A DNA stretch of 38,095 bases from Muribaculaceae bacterium (GTDB lineage: Bacteria; Bacteroidota; Bacteroidia; Bacteroidales; Muribaculaceae). The translations under genes and the position numbers were made by a program. Positions within the stretch are counted from its first letter, which is position 1. The number at the start of each line of letters is the position of its first letter. The stretch spans positions 1 through 38,095 of the forward strand of contig JAFTRI010000031.1 in assembly GCA_017462345.1 (NCBI GenBank). The letters are read 5' to 3'. The notes beneath the pieces were generated by a model, which saw nothing but the letters and a program-made list of their open reading frames with translations, was not told the DNA's origin and made no database searches. Shown one piece after another: positions 6,150 through 20,418 of this stretch.

Positions 6150-9100
6150 TTACCGGTCAATCAAGACACGTGTTGCTTTCCCATTTTGGACTTTGATGTA
6201 AATGCCTGGTTTCATGTCGGTATTATTCATTCTCACTCCTTGCATGTTGTAGTACACGGCATGGGTATCGGTGTCGGACTTGATATTATCGATTCCAGTG
6301 CTTGATGCAAACTCAAGCAGTTGATCAGACTTTGCCTCGGAGCGTGTCAGTCGGGCATCGGTGCGCACCACATAGACAAGCAGACCTTGCTGACGGGAGA
6401 ATACATACAAGTTTCCTGCGATGTCAAAATCCATCTGGTTTATCTCGGTTGTCCCATCGATTGTAATCATGTATTTGTGGGTAAATGATGGTGTAGAGCC
6501 GTTCCATGCCAGAGTGAAAATGTCAATGTTGCCATCACCGTTGACAATGGCGAATATGTCTCCGAATATTGCCATGCCTCCACCGTTACACCCGTTGAGG
6601 GAAGAAAGAGTCCCTGAATTGAATGTAATTGTCCCGTCGGTACTCATTACTGCAAAGGCCGGAACATCGGTAGTGTTGTTATTGCTATAACGGGTCTGTG
6701 AACAGAATATTCCGTTTGCCGTAGCAAGAATCTCGACGTTGGCATTGGCCATCTTGGCAGATATTGCGTCAAATTGAGCAGAAGGTGCTGAAGTCCATGA
6801 ATCAGACTCGCCGATGTCATAGCGAAGCAGTTTGTTGCTTGCATTTACAGTCGGCACATCCTGACTGAAAATATACATTTTGCGGTCAGCTCCCTCTCCT
6901 GTAAAGGTAACAGTTGTAGCCTGTCCTCCTGTTGCAGTAGAGCCGTTAACGATTTGCCCGTTACCGTCATTTGTCCCGACAAACATGTTGGTGACCGATT
7001 CTCCGGCTGCCGGATCATATACCCACACACCTGCATGACCGGCACTATGGTCGGAGATGTATAATTTGCCGTTATTCACTTCGATACGGTAAGGAGAATG
7101 GATATTTGTGCCGAATCCGGTTCCAAGTATTGCGTTACCGTTCTTTGTCAAATCGGGATTGAATTTCTGTATGCCATAGCTGCCACCGGTCGAGGTGTAT
7201 ATAGTACCGAAGTTGTCGCTTTCCGGATCTTTATCGATGGCAACACCTCCGCGACAATCGTATGAACCGTTGTTATAGTAAATGGAATTGTCGGCAAGTA
7301 TCTGCTCTACAGAAGGACTTGACGGGTTTTCTATTTCAACAGCCCATCGGAACTTGGTATCCTGAGCGAGTTCTGAACGGTCGATCACCACAGTGTTATC
7401 ACCCTCGACAACTGTTCCGATACCTATTTTTGTCTCGGTGTTATCACTTGTGTCAATGAGAACAATATGGGCGTTGTCGGCCGCTCCTGTTGACTTGAAT
7501 GACAGGGTATAGTTAGTTGCCGATGTTTCTGTCGACAATGCGTAGGCATAGTGTCCGCGTACTGACGGTTGTGCTTTTCCCTGGATTGTAGAGGTTGCCT
7601 TGGTAACGGTCTGCCGTGCAGGATTTTTGATCGCATAAACAAGCAGCCCTTCTTGTTTTGAGTAAGCATAAAGATTACCGGCATGGTCAAATGCCAACTG
7701 ATTTATGACGGTCGTGCCTGATAATGTGATTGTGTAAAGGCTCGTGAATGACGGAGTAGAACCACTCCATGACAGAGAATACAGTTGAATGTTGCCATCT
7801 CCGTTCACAATAGCGAATGTATTATCATTGTACAATGCCATGGCACCTGAATTACACCCGTTAAGAGTCGTGAGGCTTGTACCGGAATTGAATGTAACTG
7901 TTCCATCGGTACTCATTACGGCAAATGCCGGAGTCCCAGTTGAATTACTTCCACTATAACGGGTCTGGGATGCAAAAATTCCGTTTGCTGTAGCAAGAAC
8001 CTCAACATTGGTATTGGCAAATAGTGTCGATGCTGTCATAGTTGTAAATGCCTGAGAAGGAGCTGCTGTCCAAGTGTCGGAAGTCCCGATGTCATAACGC
8101 AATAGCTGGTTGCCTGCATTTCCGGAAGGATAGTCTTCACAGAATGCGTACATTTTGCGGTCAGTCCCTTCACCAATAAATGACACACCGGTTGTTCCAC
8201 CACCTGTTACCGTAGAGCCGTTTGTGATTTTGCCTGTCCCGTCATTGGTTCCGGTAAACATGTTGGTAACGGTTGCGCCGGCTTTCGGGTCATATACCCA
8301 AACTCCTCCGTGCGCATCACTCCAGTCGGTAATATATACTTTACCGTTGCTTGTCGCTATGCGGTAGGGAGAGGAGGAATTAGAACTATTGAAACTGCTG
8401 CCAAGGATGGCATCACTCTTCGTTGAGAAGTCAGGATTGTAGGAACGGATGCCTTTGCCGTATCCGGTGGAGGTGTAGATTGTCCCAAAATTAGTGCTTG
8501 TTTCATCAAGGTCGATAGCAACGCCGCCATTGGCGTAATATGACCCCGGCATGTAGGCGATGTTGTCACTGTAAATGAGTTCGGTTGCTGTACTTTTGGG
8601 GTTATCGATAGCTACCGACCATGAGAACAGGGCATTTTCGCCAAAAGTGTTGGCATCAACGGTAACCGAGTTTTCGCCTTTCACAATCGCACCGGTTGGC
8701 ATGGATTGTGTCGCACCGGTTGAGGTGTTGGTAAATATTATCGATGCGTTGTCAAAAGCTCCTGTGGATTTAAATTTTAAAGTGTAAATGTCGCCGTTTT
8801 GAGAAGAACTCAATGCATAGGCGAAATGTCCCTGTACCGCTATTTGCTCATCCGATGTGGAAATTTGCGGAGTAGGGAACACGGTTTCATCTGCAGTAAC
8901 CGTAACGGTTTCGCTGAGGTCTTTATAGTCAGGATGTGAATATACGATAGTGTATGTTCCCGGAGTCACTTTATTAAAGACGAAAACACCGTTATATTCA
9001 TCATCGGTGGTATAGGTAGAGACGACAGTCCCTTCGCTGTTTTTAAGTGTTACAGTAGCGTTGTTGATGGGCAGGTATCTGTCGAGAGTCGTGTCATTCG

Positions 9101-9968
9101 GGGTATAATAGGTGTGGGTGAACGTCTGTTCTGCATCACGAAGCACTCCATATATTGTCCCATAGGAGTCTTTCTTACCGAAACCAAAATAGTCGTTAAC
9201 TCCCTTGGCATAGGCTTCCCCTTCCCAACGGCATGCATCCCAGTTCATCGCCTTGTGGCGTGCCGGTTGATAGGTGTGGAAGAATCCTTCTACAAGAAAG
9301 CCGGGGACACCTTGACGCAACACGCCATAGTAGCCGGTATATGTTTTTCCGTTGGAGTGGGTTGTAGAGTAGGATGCCCCCATGTGTGAGACATCTCCTC
9401 GTATGTTGGTAGAGGTTTGATAGCGAGTCCACATCATGTGTGGATTCTTTTGCCAATGCGGCCAACAGGCAGTCGCCATAGCTTTGCTTCCGGCATTACC
9501 TTCAGCGGCATCAGTTCCCCGATAAAGGAATAGCGGAAAGTTAGTCGTTGATCCTTCGACTGTAGCATTGGAGTGGATTGAGATGAACATGTCGAAATTA
9601 TTCAGTTCGGCTTCTGCTGCAATTTCGGATAAAGGCCTGTCGTACAATCCTTCATGAACATCACCGCTCTTGTTACGGCTCATCACAAGGTTTTGTGTCA
9701 GGTCAAGAGCTGATGAGGCATTGTGTTTCACTCCGTATTCTTTCAGCTTGTAAAACATCCCGAAACCTTTCTGTAGATTGGTGTTTGATTCGTAGAAACC
9801 CGCGGTATCGGTATAATTGGCTGCTCCGTGGGTTACAGTTCCCATGTGACGGCATTCGGAACACCATGCTCCGTGTCCGGGGTTGATATAGATGCGCACA
9901 TCTTCAATGCTTGCCGATGCGGTTGCGGCACAAAGTGCAACGGCTGCAGACAGTATTAACTTTTTCAT
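6150..9968 (-). CDS. Secreted N-acetylmuramoyl-L-alanine amidase with two duplicated propeller-like modules
   Basis: This 1272-residue exported protein cleaves, by family, the amide bond between MurNAc and the stem peptide. After a signal peptide (cleavage near ATASAS) comes an Amidase_3 domain. Its likely zinc ligands are His32 (NPGHG), Glu60 (FYESN) and His132 (SIHSN), and its catalytic Glu is Glu227 (VEGFF). A carboxypeptidase-regulatory-like beta-sandwich follows (about residues 275-380). Two tandem copies of a roughly 420-residue module then follow (about 385-800 and 805-1215), sharing GTIYTSTG, SPYRI, GVWVYDP, NMF.GTNDG and VNGDGNI. The last 45 residues (YYNMQGVRM, PGIYIKVQNGK) resemble a type IX/Por-type sorting tail. 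The amidase domain is at the N-terminus, whereas dedicated septal amidases are much shorter. Last gene of its operon, 15 bases after the propeller gene. Confidence 0.87.
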   Translation of the reverse strand: MKKLILSAAVALCAATASASIEDVRIYINPGHGAWCSECRHMGTVTHGAANYTDTAGFYESNTNLQKGFGMFYKLKEYGVKHNASSALDLTQNLVMSRNKSGDVHEGLYDRPLSEIAAEAELNNFDMFISIHSNATVEGSTTNFPLFLYRGTDAAEGNAGSKAMATACWPHWQKNPHMMWTRYQTSTNIRGDVSHMGASYSTTHSNGKTYTGYYGVLRQGVPGFLVEGFFHTYQPARHKAMNWDACRWEGEAYAKGVNDYFGFGKKDSYGTIYGVLRDAEQTFTHTYYTPNDTTLDRYLPINNATVTLKNSEGTVVSTYTTDDEYNGVFVFNKVTPGTYTIVYSHPDYKDLSETVTVTADETVFPTPQISTSDEQIAVQGHFAYALSSSQNGDIYTLKFKSTGAFDNASIIFTNTSTGATQSMPTGAIVKGENSVTVDANTFGENALFSWSVAIDNPKSTATELIYSDNIAYMPGSYYANGGVAIDLDETSTNFGTIYTSTGYGKGIRSYNPDFSTKSDAILGSSFNSSNSSSPYRIATSNGKVYITDWSDAHGGVWVYDPKAGATVTNMFTGTNDGTGKITNGSTVTGGGTTGVSFIGEGTDRKMYAFCEDYPSGNAGNQLLRYDIGTSDTWTAAPSQAFTTMTASTLFANTNVEVLATANGIFASQTRYSGSNSTGTPAFAVMSTDGTVTFNSGTSLTTLNGCNSGAMALYNDNTFAIVNGDGNIQLYSLSWSGSTPSFTSLYTITLSGTTVINQLAFDHAGNLYAYSKQEGLLVYAIKNPARQTVTKATSTIQGKAQPSVRGHYAYALSTETSATNYTLSFKSTGAADNAHIVLIDTSDNTETKIGIGTVVEGDNTVVIDRSELAQDTKFRWAVEIENPSSPSVEQILADNSIYYNNGSYDCRGGVAIDKDPESDNFGTIYTSTGGSYGIQKFNPDLTKNGNAILGTGFGTNIHSPYRIEVNNGKLYISDHSAGHAGVWVYDPAAGESVTNMFVGTNDGNGQIVNGSTATGGQATTVTFTGEGADRKMYIFSQDVPTVNASNKLLRYDIGESDSWTSAPSAQFDAISAKMANANVEILATANGIFCSQTRYSNNNTTDVPAFAVMSTDGTITFNSGTLSSLNGCNGGGMAIFGDIFAIVNGDGNIDIFTLAWNGSTPSFTHKYMITIDGTTEINQMDFDIAGNLYVFSRQQGLLVYVVRTDARLTRSEAKSDQLLEFASSTGIDNIKSDTDTHAVYYNMQGVRMNNTDMKPGIYIKVQNGKATRVLIDR

Positions 9969-12916: not shown

Positions 12917-12924
12917 TATCTTTG
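12917..12924 (+). promoter_or_regulatory. -7 promoter element of the amgK-like gene
   Basis: TATCTTTG is a perfect match to the Bacteroidetes -7 consensus TAnnTTTG, 22 bases before the ATG at 12947. A TTTG occurs upstream but about 27 bases away, farther than the usual 19-20, so the -33 element is uncertain. Confidence 0.55.
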
Positions 12925-12946: not shown

Positions 12947-14377
12947 ATGGAGTATAATGTTTTAAAAGATTTATATAGGAAAGTGACCGGACAAGAGCCG
13001 ACAGCAGTTGTTGAAATGCCTTCGTCCGGGTCTAACCGACGTTATTTCCGGTTGACCGGAGTACAGTCGTTAGTGGGGGTTCTCGGGACTTGCGTTGAGG
13101 AAAACAAGGCGTTCTTATATATGGCAAAACATTTTGCCGACAAAGGTCTGCCGGTTCCGGAAGTGTATGCCTGCTCTGACGACGAGATGGCATATATCCA
13201 GCAGGATCTCGGTGACACTCTCCTTTTCAATGCGATAGAAAAGGGCAGGGCGACAAGCGTGTTCAGCGAGGAAGAACGGCAGACATTAATCAAGACCATA
13301 AGACTGTTACCCGATATTCAGTTTGCCGGCGCGGTAGGCCTTGATTTCAATATGTGCTATCCGTTACCTGAGTTTGATTCACGCACGATACTATGGGATC
13401 TGAACTATTTTAAATATTGTTTTCTGAAAGCCACCGGGCTTGAATTTCAGGAAGATAAGTTAGAGGATGATTTTCATGCAATGGTGGAAGTGCTTATGCG
13501 CAGCCAGTCAAGTACGTTCATGTATCGCGATTTCCAATCACGAAACGTGATGATCCATAACAACGAGCCTTGGTTCATTGATTTTCAGGGAGGACGAAAA
13601 GGTCCGTTATACTATGATGTTGCATCATTCCTTTGGCAAGCCAAGGCCAATTTCCCAGACAGCCTTCGTCAGGAACTGATAAAGGAATATATCGATTCAT
13701 TACACCGATATAAACCGGTTGATGAGGCATATTTTCACGAACAGTTACGCCACTTTGTATTGTTCAGGACATTACAGGTGCTTGGTGCGTACGGATTCCG
13801 CGGATATTTTGAGAAGAAACCTCACTTTATCCAGAGTGTCCCGTTCGCGATAGCAAATCTCCGCACATTGTTACAAGAACCCTATCCCGAGTATCCCTAC
13901 TTGAGTAAGGTGCTAAAGGAACTTGTTAACCTGAAACAATTCAGTGATGATCTCCAGAAGCATACCCTAACGGTGAAGGTGATGAGTTTTGCCTACAAGA
14001 AAGGTATTCCTAATGACACCTCAGGAAACGGGGGAGGGTATGTGTTTGATTGCCGCGCGGTAAACAACCCCGGAAAATATGAGCGGTACAAGCCGTTTAC
14101 CGGACTTGACCAGCAGGTAATAAAATTTCTTGAGGATGACGGCGAGATTGTACAATTCCTTGACCATGCTTACAGTCTGGTGGATTCGTCGGTAAAAAGA
14201 TACATTGAACGTGGATTTTCCAATCTGATGGTGTGTTTCGGCTGTACAGGAGGACAACATCGTTCGGTATATTGTGCGCAGCATACGGCAGAGCACATAA
14301 ATAAGAAATTCAATGTGAAAGTTGAACTCGTTCACCGTGAGCAGAATATAGAACAGACCTTCAAGGCAAAATATTAG
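12947..14377 (+). CDS. AmgK-like sugar kinase fused to a RapZ C-terminal domain
   Basis: This 476-residue protein has two domains. Residues 1-330 form an aminoglycoside-phosphotransferase-type kinase with the catalytic loop YRDFQSRN (Asp195, Asn200) and metal-binding IDFQ (Asp212). This is the pattern of AmgK, which phosphorylates MurNAc/GlcNAc at C1. Residues 340-476 closely match the C-terminal domain of RapZ, with SFAYKKGIP, YVFDCR, TGLD and GCTGGQHRSV (432-441). In E. coli that domain binds RNA and senses glucosamine-6-phosphate; the N-terminal P-loop half of RapZ is absent here. A MurU-like gene follows 187 bases downstream, which supports a MurNAc-recycling role. The fusion suggests that amino-sugar status feeds into recycling, but this is inference. 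The family also contains lipopolysaccharide and choline kinases, so the substrate is not certain. Confidence 0.85.
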   Translation: MEYNVLKDLYRKVTGQEPTAVVEMPSSGSNRRYFRLTGVQSLVGVLGTCVEENKAFLYMAKHFADKGLPVPEVYACSDDEMAYIQQDLGDTLLFNAIEKGRATSVFSEEERQTLIKTIRLLPDIQFAGAVGLDFNMCYPLPEFDSRTILWDLNYFKYCFLKATGLEFQEDKLEDDFHAMVEVLMRSQSSTFMYRDFQSRNVMIHNNEPWFIDFQGGRKGPLYYDVASFLWQAKANFPDSLRQELIKEYIDSLHRYKPVDEAYFHEQLRHFVLFRTLQVLGAYGFRGYFEKKPHFIQSVPFAIANLRTLLQEPYPEYPYLSKVLKELVNLKQFSDDLQKHTLTVKVMSFAYKKGIPNDTSGNGGGYVFDCRAVNNPGKYERYKPFTGLDQQVIKFLEDDGEIVQFLDHAYSLVDSSVKRYIERGFSNLMVCFGCTGGQHRSVYCAQHTAEHINKKFNVKVELVHREQNIEQTFKAKY

Positions 14378-14564
14378 AGGACTGTAAAAATTCTGTTGAA
14401 AAGGTTTTTGTGACCTTTGTGAAAAAATGGTTTCGGCTTCATCAGGGCTTTTCCGGTTACCTTACGAAATTGTTTATTGGTATACCCTGCGTAATCTATC
14501 AAAAAATCATACAAATCGCTTTTAATTATCTCGAAATAAAATTTAAACAGCTTATAAATGTAAG

Positions 14565-15296
14565 ATGAAAGCAATGGTTTTTGCCGCAGGCCTTGGCACA
14601 CGTCTGCGACCGTTAACCGACAGCAGACCCAAAGCACTTGTCGAGGTAAACGGAGTCCCGATGCTTGAACATGTCATCCGTCATATCGTTGCATGCGGTT
14701 TCTCTGAAATAGTTGTCAATGTTCATCATTTCGGTGATATGGTTATCGATTTCCTGCAATCAAAAGAATGGGATGCCAAAATATTCATCAGTGATGAACG
14801 GGGTGAATTGCTTGATACCGGGGGAGGAATCCTGAAAGCACGTGAATGGCTTGACGACGGCAGGCCGTTTCTGGTGCATAACGCTGACATACTGACCGAT
14901 ATTGATCTGATGATGATGTACCGTCATCATCTGGATTCACATGCTGATGCAACTCTGCTTGCCGCAAGCCGTGAGACATCGCGCTATCTTCTGTTTGACG
15001 CGAAAGGGCAATTGCACGGATGGATAAATACAGCCACGGAAGAGGTCAAGCCCGCCGGTTTCGTGTATGACAAGAAAATATACCGCCCGTTGGCATTCGG
15101 AGGTATACATGTTGTAAGCCCGACAATATTCCCGTCACTTGAGAAGTATTCGAGCGAACGAAAGTTCTCAATCACGCCATACTATGTGTCGGAGTGTAGG
15201 AAACTCAGTATAATGGGATATTCACCCAAAGAAAGCTACCGGTGGTTTGATATAGGCAAGCCGGAAACGTTAAGGCTTGCGGAATCCTCATTCTGA
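14565..15296 (+). CDS. murU: MurNAc-1-phosphate uridylyltransferase-like nucleotidyltransferase (MurU type)
   Basis: This 243-residue sugar-1-phosphate nucleotidyltransferase has the N-terminal signature FAAGLGTRLRPLT with a following KAL. The GGGI loop (TGGGILKA) and the metal-binding Asp in HNADILTDID are also present. Length and motifs fit MurU better than the longer glucose-1-phosphate enzymes. With the AmgK-like kinase upstream it would convert MurNAc to MurNAc-1-phosphate and then UDP-MurNAc. That salvage route bypasses MurA, the fosfomycin target, in Pseudomonas. The last 9 bases overlap the end of the convergent uvrA. A mannose- or glucose-1-phosphate substrate remains possible from sequence alone. 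Confidence 0.8.
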   Translation: MKAMVFAAGLGTRLRPLTDSRPKALVEVNGVPMLEHVIRHIVACGFSEIVVNVHHFGDMVIDFLQSKEWDAKIFISDERGELLDTGGGILKAREWLDDGRPFLVHNADILTDIDLMMMYRHHLDSHADATLLAASRETSRYLLFDAKGQLHGWINTATEEVKPAGFVYDKKIYRPLAFGGIHVVSPTIFPSLEKYSSERKFSITPYYVSECRKLSIMGYSPKESYRWFDIGKPETLRLAESSF

Positions 15297-18128
15297 TGTC
15301 AGTTCCTCACGCAAGTATGGAGCAGTGGGGGAGTCGCCTGCGGCAATCTCTTCGGGAGTCCCCTGTGCGATTATGTATCCTCCATTTTTACCGCCACCGG
15401 GTCCCATGTCTATAACGTAGTCGGCACTCTTTATCACGTCAAGGTTGTGCTCTATAACCAATACTGTGTTGCCTTTGTCCACTAAGCGGTTGAGTACCCC
15501 GAGCATTACGTTGATGTCTTCAAAATGTAATCCGGTTGTAGGCTCATCGAGTATGAACAGAGTCTTACCGGTATCCCGCTTTGCCAATTCAGTGGCAAGC
15601 TTGACACGCTGGTTTTCTCCTCCGGAGAGAGTGCTTGACGGCTGTCCGAGTCTTATATATCCGAGACCGATATCCTGCAGGACTTTTATCTTGCCAAGAA
15701 TGCCGGGTATGCCGGAAAAGAAATCGACAGCCTGATTTATTGTCATGTCAAGAACATCGGCAATCGATTTTCCTTTAAATCTCACTTCAAGTGTCTCGCG
15801 ATTATATCGTCGGCCGCCACATACCTCGCAGGGAACAAGAACATCAGGGAGGAAGTTCATTTCAATAGTCTTATACCCGTTTCCATTGCAAGCCTCGCAG
15901 CGTCCACCTGAAACATTGAAAGAGAACCGTCCGGGTTTATATCCGCGTATCTTGGCTTCAGGAAGTCCGACAAACAGAGAACGGATATCGGAAAACACGC
16001 CGGTGTAAGTGGCCGGGTTGGAACGCGGAGAACGCCCGAGCGGAGACTGGTCGACAGTCACAACTTTATCAATATTCTCTATTCCGTCAATCTCCTTGTA
16101 GGGCAAGGGCTCTTGTTGTGACCGGTAGAAATGACGGCTCAGAATGGGTTGCAGTGTAGCATTGACAAGGCTTGATTTACCGCTGCCCGAAACTCCTGCC
16201 ACACAGACCAGGCTTCCTAATGGCAGAGACAGCGTCACATCCTTCAGATTATGTCCCGTACAGCCAGAAATTGTCAAGAATTTACCGTTCCCGTTACGTC
16301 TTACGGACGGAATCTCTATTTTCTTGTTTCCATTAAGATAATCGGCAGTCAGCGTATCGGAAGCAAGCATCTCTTGAGGTGTCCCTTGAAAAACCACTTC
16401 TCCTCCACGACGTCCTGCTTTAGGGCCAATGTCTATGACATAATCGGCTTCAAGCATCATCTCCTTGTCGTGCTCGACAACAATAATCGAATTGGAAGCA
16501 TCGCGCAGTTTTTTCAGAGAATCAATCAGCCGCTTATTGTCCCGCTGATGTAATCCGATACTCGGCTCGTCAAGGATATACAGCACATTGACCAGTTCCG
16601 ATCCGAGTTGTGTCGCCAATCTTATACGTTGGCTTTCTCCACCTGACAGTGTTGCCGAATTCCTATTCAAAGACAGGTAGTCGAGTCCCACATCGATAAG
16701 GAAACTCAGACGTGTGCGTATTTCTTTCAGGATTTCCTTTGCGATAATTGCATGGGACGGACTCAGCTCTTTTTCAGCAGTCAATGACCATTGGTACAGA
16801 TCGGAAATGTCAAGACGCGCCAACTGGGCTATATTCTTATCTCCGATAAAGAAATGTAAAGCCTCCCTGTTCAAACGGTCACCGTTACACTCCGGACATA
16901 CGGTGCGGGAAAAAAACTGACCGCTCCATTTTTGGGCTGCCGAAGTCGCATCTTCGGACTGTTGCATCTCGATATACTTTATCAGACCCTCGTAGGTCAT
17001 GAAATAGTTGGATGTACTCAGGGTCTCAGTCTTGATTGCCAACCGTTCTGTTGTCCCGTTAAGGATATCGTTGATTGCATCTTCACTCAGTTCCCTGATA
17101 GGGGTCTTTATTGTAAAACCGTATTTTTCGCAGATAGCCGAAATCTGCCAGAAAATCATGGAATTCCTGTATTTCCCCAATGCGACAATCCCTCCGTCAT
17201 GTATCGACATCCTGTCATCGGGAATTATTTTAGCACGATCGACAATATTCACATATCCGAGCCCTTTACAGCAATGGCAGGCTCCCTGTGGAGAATTGAA
17301 AGAGAAATTGTGCGGTGCCGGTTCACGATAGGATATGCCGCTAACGGGATCCATAAGCATTTGACTGTAATGCCCTATGGAATCATTGTCCACATCGTAA
17401 ATCATCAGCTGGCGACTACCCTGCTTCAATGCATTGCTGACCGTGTCGCGCAACCGGGCGTCATCTTTGTCGCTGACTTTGAGCCGGTCGACAACGAGTT
17501 CAATTGAATGGTTCTTGTACCGGTCGAGTTTCATGCCGAAAGTCATTTCCCTCAGTTCTCCGTCAACCCTAACCGTTATATATCCTTTTTTACGCAGATT
17601 CTCAAACAGTTCCTTATAATGCCCTTTCCGGTTCTTTATAAGGGGAGCCAAGACGTATATTTTCTTGCCGTTATATCTGGAAATGATGAGTTCGACAATC
17701 TTTTCCTCTGTGTATTTGACCATCGGTTCGCCCGAGATGTAGCTACGGGCCTGTCCGACGCGAGCGTACAGCAGTCGTAGAAAATCATATATTTCGGTCG
17801 TTGTACCTATCGTGCTTCGCGGATTCTTGTTGATGGTCTTCTGTTCAATGGCAATAACAGGACTCAGTCCGGAAATATTGTCTACATCGGGGCGTTCCAA
17901 TGCTCCGAGCATGTTGCGAGCGTAAGAAGAGAATGTCTCGATGTATCGCCGTTGCCCCTCGGCATAGATGGTGTCGAATGCTAATGAAGACTTGCCGCTA
18001 CCGCTCAATCCGGTAATCACCGTAAGGCGATTATGCGGTATGGTCACGTCTATATTTTTCAGATTGTGAACTCTTGCCCCGTGAACATCAAGGGTTTCGG
18101 TAACCGGCTGTTTTTCTTCGGACTGCAT
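15288..18128 (-). CDS. uvrA: Excinuclease ABC subunit A
   Basis: UvrA is the damage-sensing ATPase of nucleotide excision repair. The protein has both ABC modules, with Walker A motifs GLSGSGKSSLAF and GVSGSGKSSLVN and ABC signatures LSGGESQRIRLA and LSGGENQRVKLA. Two CxxC zinc-binding clusters are present (CHCCKGLG and CEACNGNG/CEVCGGRR). Length (946 residues) is normal. The ATG at 18128 shares its A with the TAA stop of the transglycosylase gene (TAATG), a sign of translational coupling; a TTG five codons upstream is the alternative. It is the last gene of a three-gene minus-strand operon whose other members are envelope proteins, an unusual setting for a repair gene. Confidence 0.97.
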   Translation of the reverse strand: MQSEEKQPVTETLDVHGARVHNLKNIDVTIPHNRLTVITGLSGSGKSSLAFDTIYAEGQRRYIETFSSYARNMLGALERPDVDNISGLSPVIAIEQKTINKNPRSTIGTTTEIYDFLRLLYARVGQARSYISGEPMVKYTEEKIVELIISRYNGKKIYVLAPLIKNRKGHYKELFENLRKKGYITVRVDGELREMTFGMKLDRYKNHSIELVVDRLKVSDKDDARLRDTVSNALKQGSRQLMIYDVDNDSIGHYSQMLMDPVSGISYREPAPHNFSFNSPQGACHCCKGLGYVNIVDRAKIIPDDRMSIHDGGIVALGKYRNSMIFWQISAICEKYGFTIKTPIRELSEDAINDILNGTTERLAIKTETLSTSNYFMTYEGLIKYIEMQQSEDATSAAQKWSGQFFSRTVCPECNGDRLNREALHFFIGDKNIAQLARLDISDLYQWSLTAEKELSPSHAIIAKEILKEIRTRLSFLIDVGLDYLSLNRNSATLSGGESQRIRLATQLGSELVNVLYILDEPSIGLHQRDNKRLIDSLKKLRDASNSIIVVEHDKEMMLEADYVIDIGPKAGRRGGEVVFQGTPQEMLASDTLTADYLNGNKKIEIPSVRRNGNGKFLTISGCTGHNLKDVTLSLPLGSLVCVAGVSGSGKSSLVNATLQPILSRHFYRSQQEPLPYKEIDGIENIDKVVTVDQSPLGRSPRSNPATYTGVFSDIRSLFVGLPEAKIRGYKPGRFSFNVSGGRCEACNGNGYKTIEMNFLPDVLVPCEVCGGRRYNRETLEVRFKGKSIADVLDMTINQAVDFFSGIPGILGKIKVLQDIGLGYIRLGQPSSTLSGGENQRVKLATELAKRDTGKTLFILDEPTTGLHFEDINVMLGVLNRLVDKGNTVLVIEHNLDVIKSADYVIDMGPGGGKNGGYIIAQGTPEEIAAGDSPTAPYLREELTSE

Positions 18129-19084
18129 TATTCTACGACCCAATTTTTATTATAAACCGTTTTCTTCTGTGACGAACGATACAGGGCATCTTTATGTGGA
18201 ATCCTGACATTGTAGATCTTTCCCGACTTGTTTGGCAATGATTTTGCACGAATCCACGGATTCAACTCCTTGAGCTGGTAAAATGTAATGCCCCGCTCCT
18301 TTGCCCATGCCGGCCAATCCTCTATCGCGCTGTCAACTTTTTCCGTATGGTAGGATATTGGTTGGTAAAGCTGATGCCGGGACAACCTGAAGCCGTATTT
18401 GGCGGGACTTTCCATTATCAGTTTTGTCGCTAATATGCGGAACATGTATCGGGAGGTCTCATCGGCAAGATAAAGATCAAATGCCGAACCGGCAAGCTGT
18501 TTTGACAACTCGGTTGAGATTCGTGTCATCCCTCCATTATAGGATGCTGCCACCGACTCCCAATTGCCGTATTGTGAATACGCTTTCCTGAAATATCGAC
18601 ATGCTGCCTCAGTGGCTTTCTCAATGTCATAGCGCTCATCCACATAGTCGTTGATCTCGAGACCGTACTGCTTTCCGGTGCTCGGAATGAACTGCCACAG
18701 CCCGGCAGCCTTGGCCGGAGAGTAGGCGCGGATATTCAGTGTGCTTTCAACGCAGGCAAGGTACACCATGTCCTGCGGCACTCCGTATCGTTTCAGTAAC
18801 GGTACCAGCTCGGGGAAAAAACGGTTGGCACGTTTAAGCAGCAACAATGTATTGCCATGAGTATATGTCAGAGAGGTCAGTTCCCTGTCCATGCGCTCAA
18901 ACATGTCGATACGGTCAAGATTGATACGTTGTCCGGCAAATTCAACGGACAATGGTATTTCCGGATTTTCAACCGTCGAGAAGATGTCGTTTTTCTTCGG
19001 GATACCGGTTGTTACAGCTTGTATGTTACCGCCTGTCAGAAACATCACTGCCGCCAAAACAATCTTGTAAATATATTTATTCAT
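18128..19084 (-). CDS. Membrane-bound lytic transglycosylase (MltD-like, SLT domain)
   Basis: This 318-residue exported enzyme should cleave the MurNAc-GlcNAc bond non-hydrolytically. After a signal peptide it has a GH23 SLT domain with catalytic Glu113 (ACVESTLN) and the family motifs AAGLWQFIPSTG and AASYNGG. The C-terminal segment (YQLKELNPWI ending in VRIP) looks like a single LysM-like wall-binding motif, as in MltD. The ATG at 19084 is preferred, 11 bases past the upstream stop; a TTG at 19099 that overlaps that stop is the alternative. It lies between the sorting-domain protein and uvrA in one operon. Confidence 0.9.
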   Translation of the reverse strand: MNKYIYKIVLAAVMFLTGGNIQAVTTGIPKKNDIFSTVENPEIPLSVEFAGQRINLDRIDMFERMDRELTSLTYTHGNTLLLLKRANRFFPELVPLLKRYGVPQDMVYLACVESTLNIRAYSPAKAAGLWQFIPSTGKQYGLEINDYVDERYDIEKATEAACRYFRKAYSQYGNWESVAASYNGGMTRISTELSKQLAGSAFDLYLADETSRYMFRILATKLIMESPAKYGFRLSRHQLYQPISYHTEKVDSAIEDWPAWAKERGITFYQLKELNPWIRAKSLPNKSGKIYNVRIPHKDALYRSSQKKTVYNKNWVVE

Positions 19085-19095
19085 TGTGTTTCTGT

Positions 19096-20418
19096 TCAAT
19101 TGGCAGATGTCTTCTGCGAATTCTTGTATTTGATTATGTTGATGTCGCCTTTCAGCTCATAATTCTTGCCGTCGGCACCGGTGGCCTTTATCACGTAGTA
19201 ATAAACTCCTGAAGGTACGTATTTTCCGCCATGTTTGCCGTCCCAGCCTTGGGACGGATCGGTAAATTCTGCAACCTTGATTCCCCAACGGTTGAATATG
19301 TGGCATTCAAATGATATTATCGACTTATAGCTTACTTTCCACTCGTCATTAATCCCTTCGGTAGCCCCGGGCGAGAACGCATTCGGGCAATCTATGCTTG
19401 ACTCACCGATAAATACCTCGTATGTAGGGCTGAAGTAGTCGCATGTCCCGGCTGCATTACTGGCCATGAATCTGACGTAAGTAGTCCCTTGGTTGCGGAA
19501 TGTATAGGTTACATCCGGTTCGTTCATCCTTAATGTTATATTCTCAAATTCCTGGTCGGTTGAGAACTGCCATTCCTTGAATATTGCCGCATCGCTGCAT
19601 ACGGCACGAAACTCGATTTCTGACGGGGCAGAACCTCCGAGAGCTTCACTTTCCTCTTTCTTTTCGTTTGAATTGTCACGCGCTGTCTGCGTTGCACTTG
19701 TCTCGGCGCTCACAGCCGTTGTAGTGAATGTGGGACTTACGGCTGACACCTCCTCGCCCCATGTCCTCAGAAAACGGTCGCCTGACATCTGGAAATCAGT
19801 GTCGCACAATGGCGCTTGTGTATGGATTGTGGTTGAAAGATACGAAAGTGACTCTATTTTCTCTATCTGGTTGTACACCCCGTTGTCACCATCCCATTCA
19901 AGAGTCATGTAACTCAACTTTATATCGCGATCCAATTCCTTGGCTTGACCGTTGATTGTGTAGTACAGGATTTTATCACCTGAACCAGTCGGTGTAAGGA
20001 ATGTGACGTCACATTCCTGTTCCTGCGAAATTGACAGGTCGGACAGTGAAAAATAATGTTTTGAGTAGTCCACCACCCAAAGGTAATAGCGGGACGTTCC
20101 TTCCTCGATTATGTATCCCATGTCGGAGTCGATCTTCGGCAAGGTGTAGGTATTCCCGTTGCGTATCACCCCGTTCACCTGTTCTGAATATGCTCCGCCG
20201 AGATTGCTGTACCGGTACCATGTCACAGCCGATGATGTCGTGGCAGTATATTGCATCGACACTCCTGACACATCATACAGTATATATATTTGATCCAGCC
20301 CTGTTGATGCCTCCGGCGTTTCGGTTATAACCTGCCTGCTGCTACCCGTAAACGAAACTGCGGCTTTCACGGTCCCGAATATCGTCAATAATACGATAAG
20401 AATTATACTTTTCCTCAT
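19096..20418 (-). CDS. Exported protein with gliding-motility-type (type B) C-terminal sorting domain
   Basis: This 440-residue protein has a signal peptide (MRKSIILIVLLTIFGTVKA) and Ig-like or adhesion-like middle regions. Its C-terminal 90 residues are a CHU_C/gliding-type domain with CPNAFSPGATEGINDEW, FNRWG, GWDGKHGGKYVPSGVYYYVI and KGDINIIK. In Bacteroidetes that domain directs secretion through the type IX system. The body of the protein is not recognised, and it includes a Ser/Thr-rich low-complexity linker near residues 230-260. It is the first gene of the operon with the transglycosylase and uvrA. Confidence 0.85.
   Translation of the reverse strand: MRKSIILIVLLTIFGTVKAAVSFTGSSRQVITETPEASTGLDQIYILYDVSGVSMQYTATTSSAVTWYRYSNLGGAYSEQVNGVIRNGNTYTLPKIDSDMGYIIEEGTSRYYLWVVDYSKHYFSLSDLSISQEQECDVTFLTPTGSGDKILYYTINGQAKELDRDIKLSYMTLEWDGDNGVYNQIEKIESLSYLSTTIHTQAPLCDTDFQMSGDRFLRTWGEEVSAVSPTFTTTAVSAETSATQTARDNSNEKKEESEALGGSAPSEIEFRAVCSDAAIFKEWQFSTDQEFENITLRMNEPDVTYTFRNQGTTYVRFMASNAAGTCDYFSPTYEVFIGESSIDCPNAFSPGATEGINDEWKVSYKSIISFECHIFNRWGIKVAEFTDPSQGWDGKHGGKYVPSGVYYYVIKATGADGKNYELKGDINIIKYKNSQKTSAN

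Follow-up and report, generated by a model that had tools for sequence, protein, structure and literature searches.

The stretch analysed here, which we call the window, comprises 38,095 nucleotides (positions 1 to 38,095, forward strand) of contig JAFTRI010000031.1 from the Muribaculaceae bacterium assembly GCA_017462345.1. At its centre of interest is a plus-strand gene (12947..14377) that encodes a 476-residue fusion of an AmgK-like kinase and the C-terminal domain of RapZ (RapZ-C). The kinase part comprises residues 1-315 (12947..13891, plus strand) and carries the catalytic residues Asp195, Asn200 and Asp212. The RapZ-C domain spans residues 339-468 (13961..14350, plus strand) and has an insert ending in GGG ahead of its VFDCR strand. 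It contains a CX5RS loop, C433-T-G-G-Q-H-R439-S440 (14243..14266, plus strand), which an alignment of 55 domains matches to C247-S254 of Escherichia coli RapZ and which, from the secondary structure, is flanked by a strand (426-433) and a helix (439-455). The next gene on the same strand (14565..15296) encodes a 243-residue MurU-like sugar-1-phosphate nucleotidyltransferase.

This arrangement of fusion and MurU, first observed in the sequence itself, is confirmed, and the domain identities given in the original prediction are borne out by family and fold matches. The profile score of RapZ-C is above the PF22740 cut-off and its fold is that of the RapZ C-terminal domain, so that it does belong to the RapZ-C family, as had been proposed. 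The kinase part has an APH fold, with 3csv as its closest structure, and the catalytic Asp, Asn and Asp are invariant in 35 aligned kinase parts. For the MurU-like protein the closest structure is 4y7t (E 4.3e-22), and the NCBIfam MurU models score 134 and 130 bits, under their cut-offs of 370 and 250 respectively; these are still the two best families. The N-terminal P-loop half of RapZ had been noted as missing, and PF03668 indeed has no match in the fusion protein or in its genome, which is 84% complete.

A search for the domain pair across the Bacteroidetes, foreseen in the original prediction, found RapZ-C in 54 genomes of an even sample of the phylum (392 genomes). In 40 of these it is fused to the kinase, in frames of 476 to 524 amino acids, and in the other 14 it occupies frames of 134 to 169 amino acids. 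The fusion had been taken as a peculiarity of one organism; this does not hold, as RapZ-C is present in 198 of 247 genomes of the window's order, where frames of at least 460 amino acids account for 139/150 among the matches listed. Among 31 near genomes, the window's included, 27 match the fusion protein, and of these G411 has the kinase only (330 amino acids), the contig of G418 ends within the gene and G413 has the domains in separate frames. At least 595 stretches came out of a scan of genome contigs, and 591 of these encode a relative. The best 80 of these stretches bear Bacteroidota names, including Bacteroides, Parabacteroides, Phocaeicola and Tannerella, with one named just "uncultured bacterium", and tblastn matched both domains in 80/80. 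A tree of the kinases, made by a quick method and having many open forks and long branches, contains four changes between fused and not fused. Both domains are known already and the pairing is expected to appear in domain databases; a literature search by title or start of abstract, with most subscription papers outside it, gave no paper on the kinase/RapZ-C fusion among the matches listed. Two variant frames are recorded here as side observations: in G413, which is of the same order, the kinase and RapZ-C frames are adjacent and split by a stop (L143 1671-3092), and in G412 a 736-residue frame (L142 1573-3783) has approximately 270 extra residues N-terminal to the kinase and the variant loop GCTGGKHRSA.

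The MurU neighbour is also a general feature. In 42 of 44 loci, the window included, a MurU-like gene follows on the same strand (the exceptions are L025 and L038), and tblastn places one directly downstream in 72 of the 80 best contig loci. Of the eight exceptions among the 80, MurU lies approximately 1 kb further downstream in one and on the opposite strand, elsewhere in the locus, in two; the remaining five loci contain no MurU, and in one of these five just 1 kb of sequence remains. Neighbour clustering that picked open reading frames (ORFs) greedily, and so missed those lying under longer antisense frames, counted MurU in 58/76; the tblastn figure supersedes this count. Besides the fusion's own cluster, the largest from this method spans 10 of the 80 loci. 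Where RapZ-C is a separate gene (14 genomes), kinase, RapZ-C and MurU are three neighbours in eight, RapZ-C lies beside MurU with the kinase elsewhere in one, and neither is found within the surrounding 6.4-10 kb in five. Kinase and RapZ-C are unlinked, being far apart or on different contigs, in six of the 54 RapZ-C genomes, while in an uncultured Bacteroidales (L141 4989-7274) kinase, RapZ-C and MurU share one frame of 761 amino acids.

The alignment of 55 RapZ-C domains, which includes that of the window, shows which parts of the E. coli domain are kept and which are lost; the E. coli residue roles in RNA binding and in the pocket are those reported in PMC5737377, PMC7073468 and PMC9841335. 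All 55 domains share C433, T434, G435, G436, H438, R439, S440, D368, R370, H463 and the insert's GGG, and equivalents of the E. coli pocket residues C247, T248, G249, H252 and R253 are accordingly present in every domain. The position of His190, described as required in E. coli RapZ (PMC9841335), is Gly in 54/55 domains, the window's included. The columns aligned with the RNA-binding residues Lys270, Lys281, Arg282 and Lys283 are variable and hold Asn456, Ile468, Glu469 and Gln470 in the window. The tail after His463 is short, with a median of 10 residues of which two are basic and two acidic, and a net charge of at least +3 occurs in 1/55. The RNA-binding role suggested in the original prediction is thus not supported and, judged from these residues, is unlikely; we put it no more strongly because the equivalents of the RNA-facing E. 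coli residues K170, R184 and R196 stay basic in 53/55 (K/R), 55/55 and 47/55 (K/R) respectively. That the pairing is kept across much of the phylum suggests that RapZ-C here handles a sugar phosphate, not RNA.

To compare the distribution of the kinase with that of RapZ-C we used an alignment of 35 kinase parts as the query against these 392 genomes, accepting matches at E 1e-15 or below. The kinase is found in 120 genomes and falls into two tiers, 55 genomes with E values no higher than 5.9e-77 and 65 at approximately 1e-30 to 1e-45. The first tier consists of the 54 RapZ-C genomes and G009, so the close kinase subfamily is present in 54/54 genomes with RapZ-C and in 1/338 others (Fisher p 5e-66, without correction for kinship). 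The pair is kept whether or not the genes are fused or linked, as shown by the six genomes in which kinase and RapZ-C lie apart. MurQ (TIGR00274, E 1e-20) was found in 292 genomes and AnmK (PF03702) in 287. An AmgK-type kinase of either tier is present in 97 of the 100 genomes without MurQ compared with 23 of the 292 with it, which is the pattern that a kinase for salvage of N-acetylmuramic acid (MurNAc), replacing the etherase route, would give. Together with the MurU gene downstream, this complementarity supports the MurNAc-salvage role originally put forward. RapZ-C is present in 17 of the 18 genomes that have AnmK, the source of MurNAc-6-phosphate, and lack MurQ, which would use it up; these 17 span six families. 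Among the 120 kinase genomes AnmK coincides with RapZ-C in 35/35 (the match in G216 is weak, 1.2e-10) and is lacking from all 66 with the kinase only, a pattern that is suggestive only, because 65 of those 66 come from one family and kinship confounds it. That family (f19) contains all 65 genomes of the second kinase tier; they have a distant AmgK-type kinase and no match to RapZ-C, AnmK or MurQ.

The window's genome also holds genes of a second route. One plus-strand run (L149 33-8316; contig C12 14032-22315) contains an AmpG-like transporter, a NamZ exo-muramidase, a 931-residue protein, a NagX-like membrane protein, a MurK-like kinase (280 amino acids, with a weak BadF/BadG match) and MurQ. 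In Tannerella forsythia a MurT-MurK-MurQ operon is described in which MurK is a MurNAc 6-kinase of the BadF/BadG ATPase family (PMC5790795), and this organism, which probably belongs to the window's order, is said also to channel MurNAc through AmgK/MurU to uridine diphosphate (UDP)-MurNAc (PMC7670621). The run is reminiscent of the MurNAc cluster of T. forsythia, and the window's genome has it in addition to the AmgK-like/MurU-like pair; MurNAc in the window's organism is therefore likely to have both a catabolic and an anabolic fate, with the fusion on the anabolic one. No match to AnmK was found in the window's genome or in the other members of its genus that were covered, 12 genomes in all, several of which are incomplete.

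Building on the domains, gene order, invariance and co-occurrence described above, we tentatively favour, with rather less than even confidence, an enzyme with two functions in anabolic MurNAc salvage, in which an AmgK-type kinase is joined to a RapZ-C domain that acts on a phosphosugar, most likely by removing its phosphate. As an anomeric kinase, the kinase part would convert MurNAc to MurNAc-1-phosphate, from which the MurU-type uridylyltransferase of the next gene would make UDP-MurNAc; we infer these two steps from family, context and the complementarity with MurQ. RapZ-C would bind the phosphate of a small phosphosugar, not RNA, in its invariant C-x5-R-S loop. It may then hydrolyse MurNAc-6-phosphate (MurNAc-6P) to MurNAc, the slot of MupP in Pseudomonas, and pass the product to the attached kinase. 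The Pseudomonas route is given as AnmK, MupP, AmgK and MurU, in an organism without MurQ (Borisova et al., PMC5371407). Three observations incline us to hydrolysis: the cysteine never varies, free-standing copies of RapZ-C are retained both next to the kinase and MurU genes and away from them, and genomes that have AnmK but not MurQ keep the domain. Where a free-standing copy adjoins two enzyme genes, a third enzyme is its simplest reading.

A C-x5-R-S loop between a strand and a helix is a signature of cysteine-dependent phosphatases, and RapZ-C has a CX5R(S/T) loop in this setting, as do phosphatases of the protein tyrosine phosphatase (PTP) and dual-specificity phosphatase (DSP) types. The pocket of E. 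coli RapZ is reported to resemble a PTP loop, with hydrolysis of glucosamine-6-phosphate (GlcN6P) treated as an open hypothesis under investigation (PMC7199280). Both C247A and C247S are reported to inactivate E. coli RapZ, and the authors suggest that the SH group may be catalytic; the same source describes a crystal structure of the RapZ domain, with GlcN6P present, as likely holding a transformed product (PMC9841335). YvcJ of Bacillus subtilis is said to possess phosphatase activity, which is not attributed to its RapZ-C domain in the account of PMC7525490. A wider proposal, possible but doubtful, is that RapZ-C is by origin a phosphatase that uses its cysteine to act on phosphosugars, which in Bacteroidota would be the missing MurNAc-6-phosphate phosphatase of anabolic recycling, and that the RNA-adapter function in E. 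coli is a later reuse of the pocket. If true, fusion to AmgK, and at times to MurU, would bring the path from MurNAc-6P to UDP-MurNAc onto one protein or operon.

Several results weigh against a salvage phosphatase fused to AmgK, besides the kinship behind the AnmK pattern. The kinase scores 64.6 bits against the AmgK equivalog NF045759 (NCBIfam), which has a cut-off of 550, and since it falls below this it is, on sequence, better called AmgK-like than AmgK. AnmK is not enriched with RapZ-C (35/54 compared with 252/338, p 0.14), and 19 of the 54 RapZ-C genomes lack it, the window's among them. Within the AnmK distribution, only the class with AnmK but not MurQ (17 of 18 with RapZ-C) and the kinase-only class (66 of 66 lacking AnmK) speak for the MupP slot. 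Within one genus G230 has the kinase and RapZ-C without AnmK, and G238 has AnmK without either. MurQ is present in 23 of the 54 RapZ-C genomes, and in the window's genome a MurNAc-6P phosphatase would oppose the MurK of the MurK-like/MurQ pair. Comparison by hhalign with four DSP-type phosphatases gave nothing significant (probability 0.2%, E 0.28), the loops alone being aligned; these were the four of five DSP loci that gave an ORF with the required motif, L150 being left out. A profile search of the Protein Data Bank up to E 10 listed no phosphatase. The VIA-align list for the whole protein holds mostly kinases and no phosphatase at residues 339-468, and counts neither way. Finally, RapZ-C of E. 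coli is known as a sensor, and changes at C247 are reported to lower RNA binding as well (PMC9841335).

The invariant cysteine-loop pocket and the free-standing copies are compatible with catalysis by a phosphatase too. An allosteric sensor, the idea of the original prediction, is the alternative that we take most seriously, again at less than even confidence. RapZ-C would in that case bind GlcN6P or a related phosphosugar and tune the kinase at the branch point between MurK/MurQ and UDP-MurNAc. This is nearly as likely as hydrolysis, above all in genomes that also have MurQ, such as that of the window, because hydrolysis of MurNAc-6P there would oppose MurK. E. coli RapZ-C is reported to bind GlcN6P by itself (PMC7073468), the equivalents of T248, G249, H252 and R253 are kept in all 55 domains, MurNAc has two possible fates in the window's genome given its AmpG-like, NamZ, MurK-like and MurQ run, and regulation in cis suits a kinase fusion. 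However, 14 of 54 genomes encode RapZ-C as a gene of its own, in six of them without linkage to the kinase, the His190 needed in E. coli is replaced by Gly in 54 of 55 domains, and plain binding needs no invariant cysteine.

The other explanations have lower probability. We consider it improbable that the MurNAc label is wrong and that the kinase and nucleotidyltransferase use another amino sugar (N-acetylglucosamine or heptose), given the complementarity of kinase and MurQ over 392 genomes, the nearest structures 3csv and 4y7t, and the reported use of AmgK/MurU in T. forsythia. A purely structural role, in which RapZ-C just dimerises the kinase or docks MurU and has no ligand function, seems quite improbable: the E. 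coli domain is reported to dimerise on its own (PMC7073468, PMC7199280) and one MurU fusion is known (L141), but the whole polar phosphate loop is among the invariant residues and unlinked copies of RapZ-C persist. Least probable, in our view, is a regulator that carries a small RNA or mRNA and so links salvage with the post-transcriptional regulation of amino-sugar genes. In its favour, E. coli RapZ-C alone is reported to bind RNA (PMC5737377, PMC7073468) and the three RNA-facing positions remain largely basic. It has to be set against the loss of the four tail residues, the short tail, the absence of an N-domain match in protein or genome, and an Rfam search at gathering thresholds that found no RNA family in the window; B. 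subtilis YvcJ also lacks the tail motif, and in the account of PMC7525490 the authors find nothing to indicate that it binds RNA.

Among known systems, the fusion resembles the AmgK/MurU system of Pseudomonas in its APH-fold kinase with intact catalytic residues, its MurU-type gene downstream and its complementarity with MurQ, although to our knowledge Pseudomonas AmgK has no RapZ-C. Under the preferred reading RapZ-C would, by analogy, fill the same MurNAc-6P-to-AmgK step as MupP, which was found among HAD-like candidates and is of another family than RapZ-C (PMC5371407). From the E. coli RapZ C-terminal domain (5o5s, 5o5o) it differs in lacking a P-loop N domain, in its GGG insert, in having Gly for His190, in its unconserved RNA-binding tail residues and in the fused kinase. 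B. subtilis YvcJ is similar in being a RapZ homologue without the RNA tail motif that is linked to amino-sugar control; it has Walker A and B motifs, and the portion of PMC7525490 available describes no kinase fusion. T. forsythia likewise combines a MurK/MurQ run with an AmgK/MurU pair, and the available portions of PMC7670621 and PMC5790795 mention no RapZ domain on the kinase. RapZ-C has so far been studied as an RNA-binding, GlcN6P-sensing domain, with a catalytic cysteine left open in the available parts of PMC9841335 and PMC7199280. In many Bacteroidota the pocket is kept, tied to a MurNAc-salvage kinase and lacking the RNA tail; in the window's genome the P-loop half is absent as well. 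The Bacteroidota fusion offers a clean setting for asking how the RapZ-C pocket acts on a sugar phosphate, a question that bears on wall recycling in these bacteria.

Some smaller features lie around the fusion gene. Upstream, TATCTTTG (12917..12924, plus strand) is a candidate promoter element found from sequence only, which resembles the Bacteroidetes -7 consensus, TAnnTTTG; with this as the -7 element, the transcript would have a short leader ahead of its ATG (12947). The gap between the fusion and MurU is 187 nucleotides in the window (14378-14564) and ranges from -56 to +11 in eight loci of the same genus with a MurU match. A minus-strand ORF (14374-14637) spans this gap and by eye is slightly like the end of an AraC-type helix-turn-helix protein. 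In both of the split-gene loci scanned, a PF03641 (Possible-lysine-decarboxylase) gene follows MurU (L054 6103-6855 and L052 3602-4312). Near the fusion in the window are, by eye, a secreted N-acetylmuramoyl-amidase-like protein with long repeats (6150-9968) and a lytic-transglycosylase-like protein (18128-19099).
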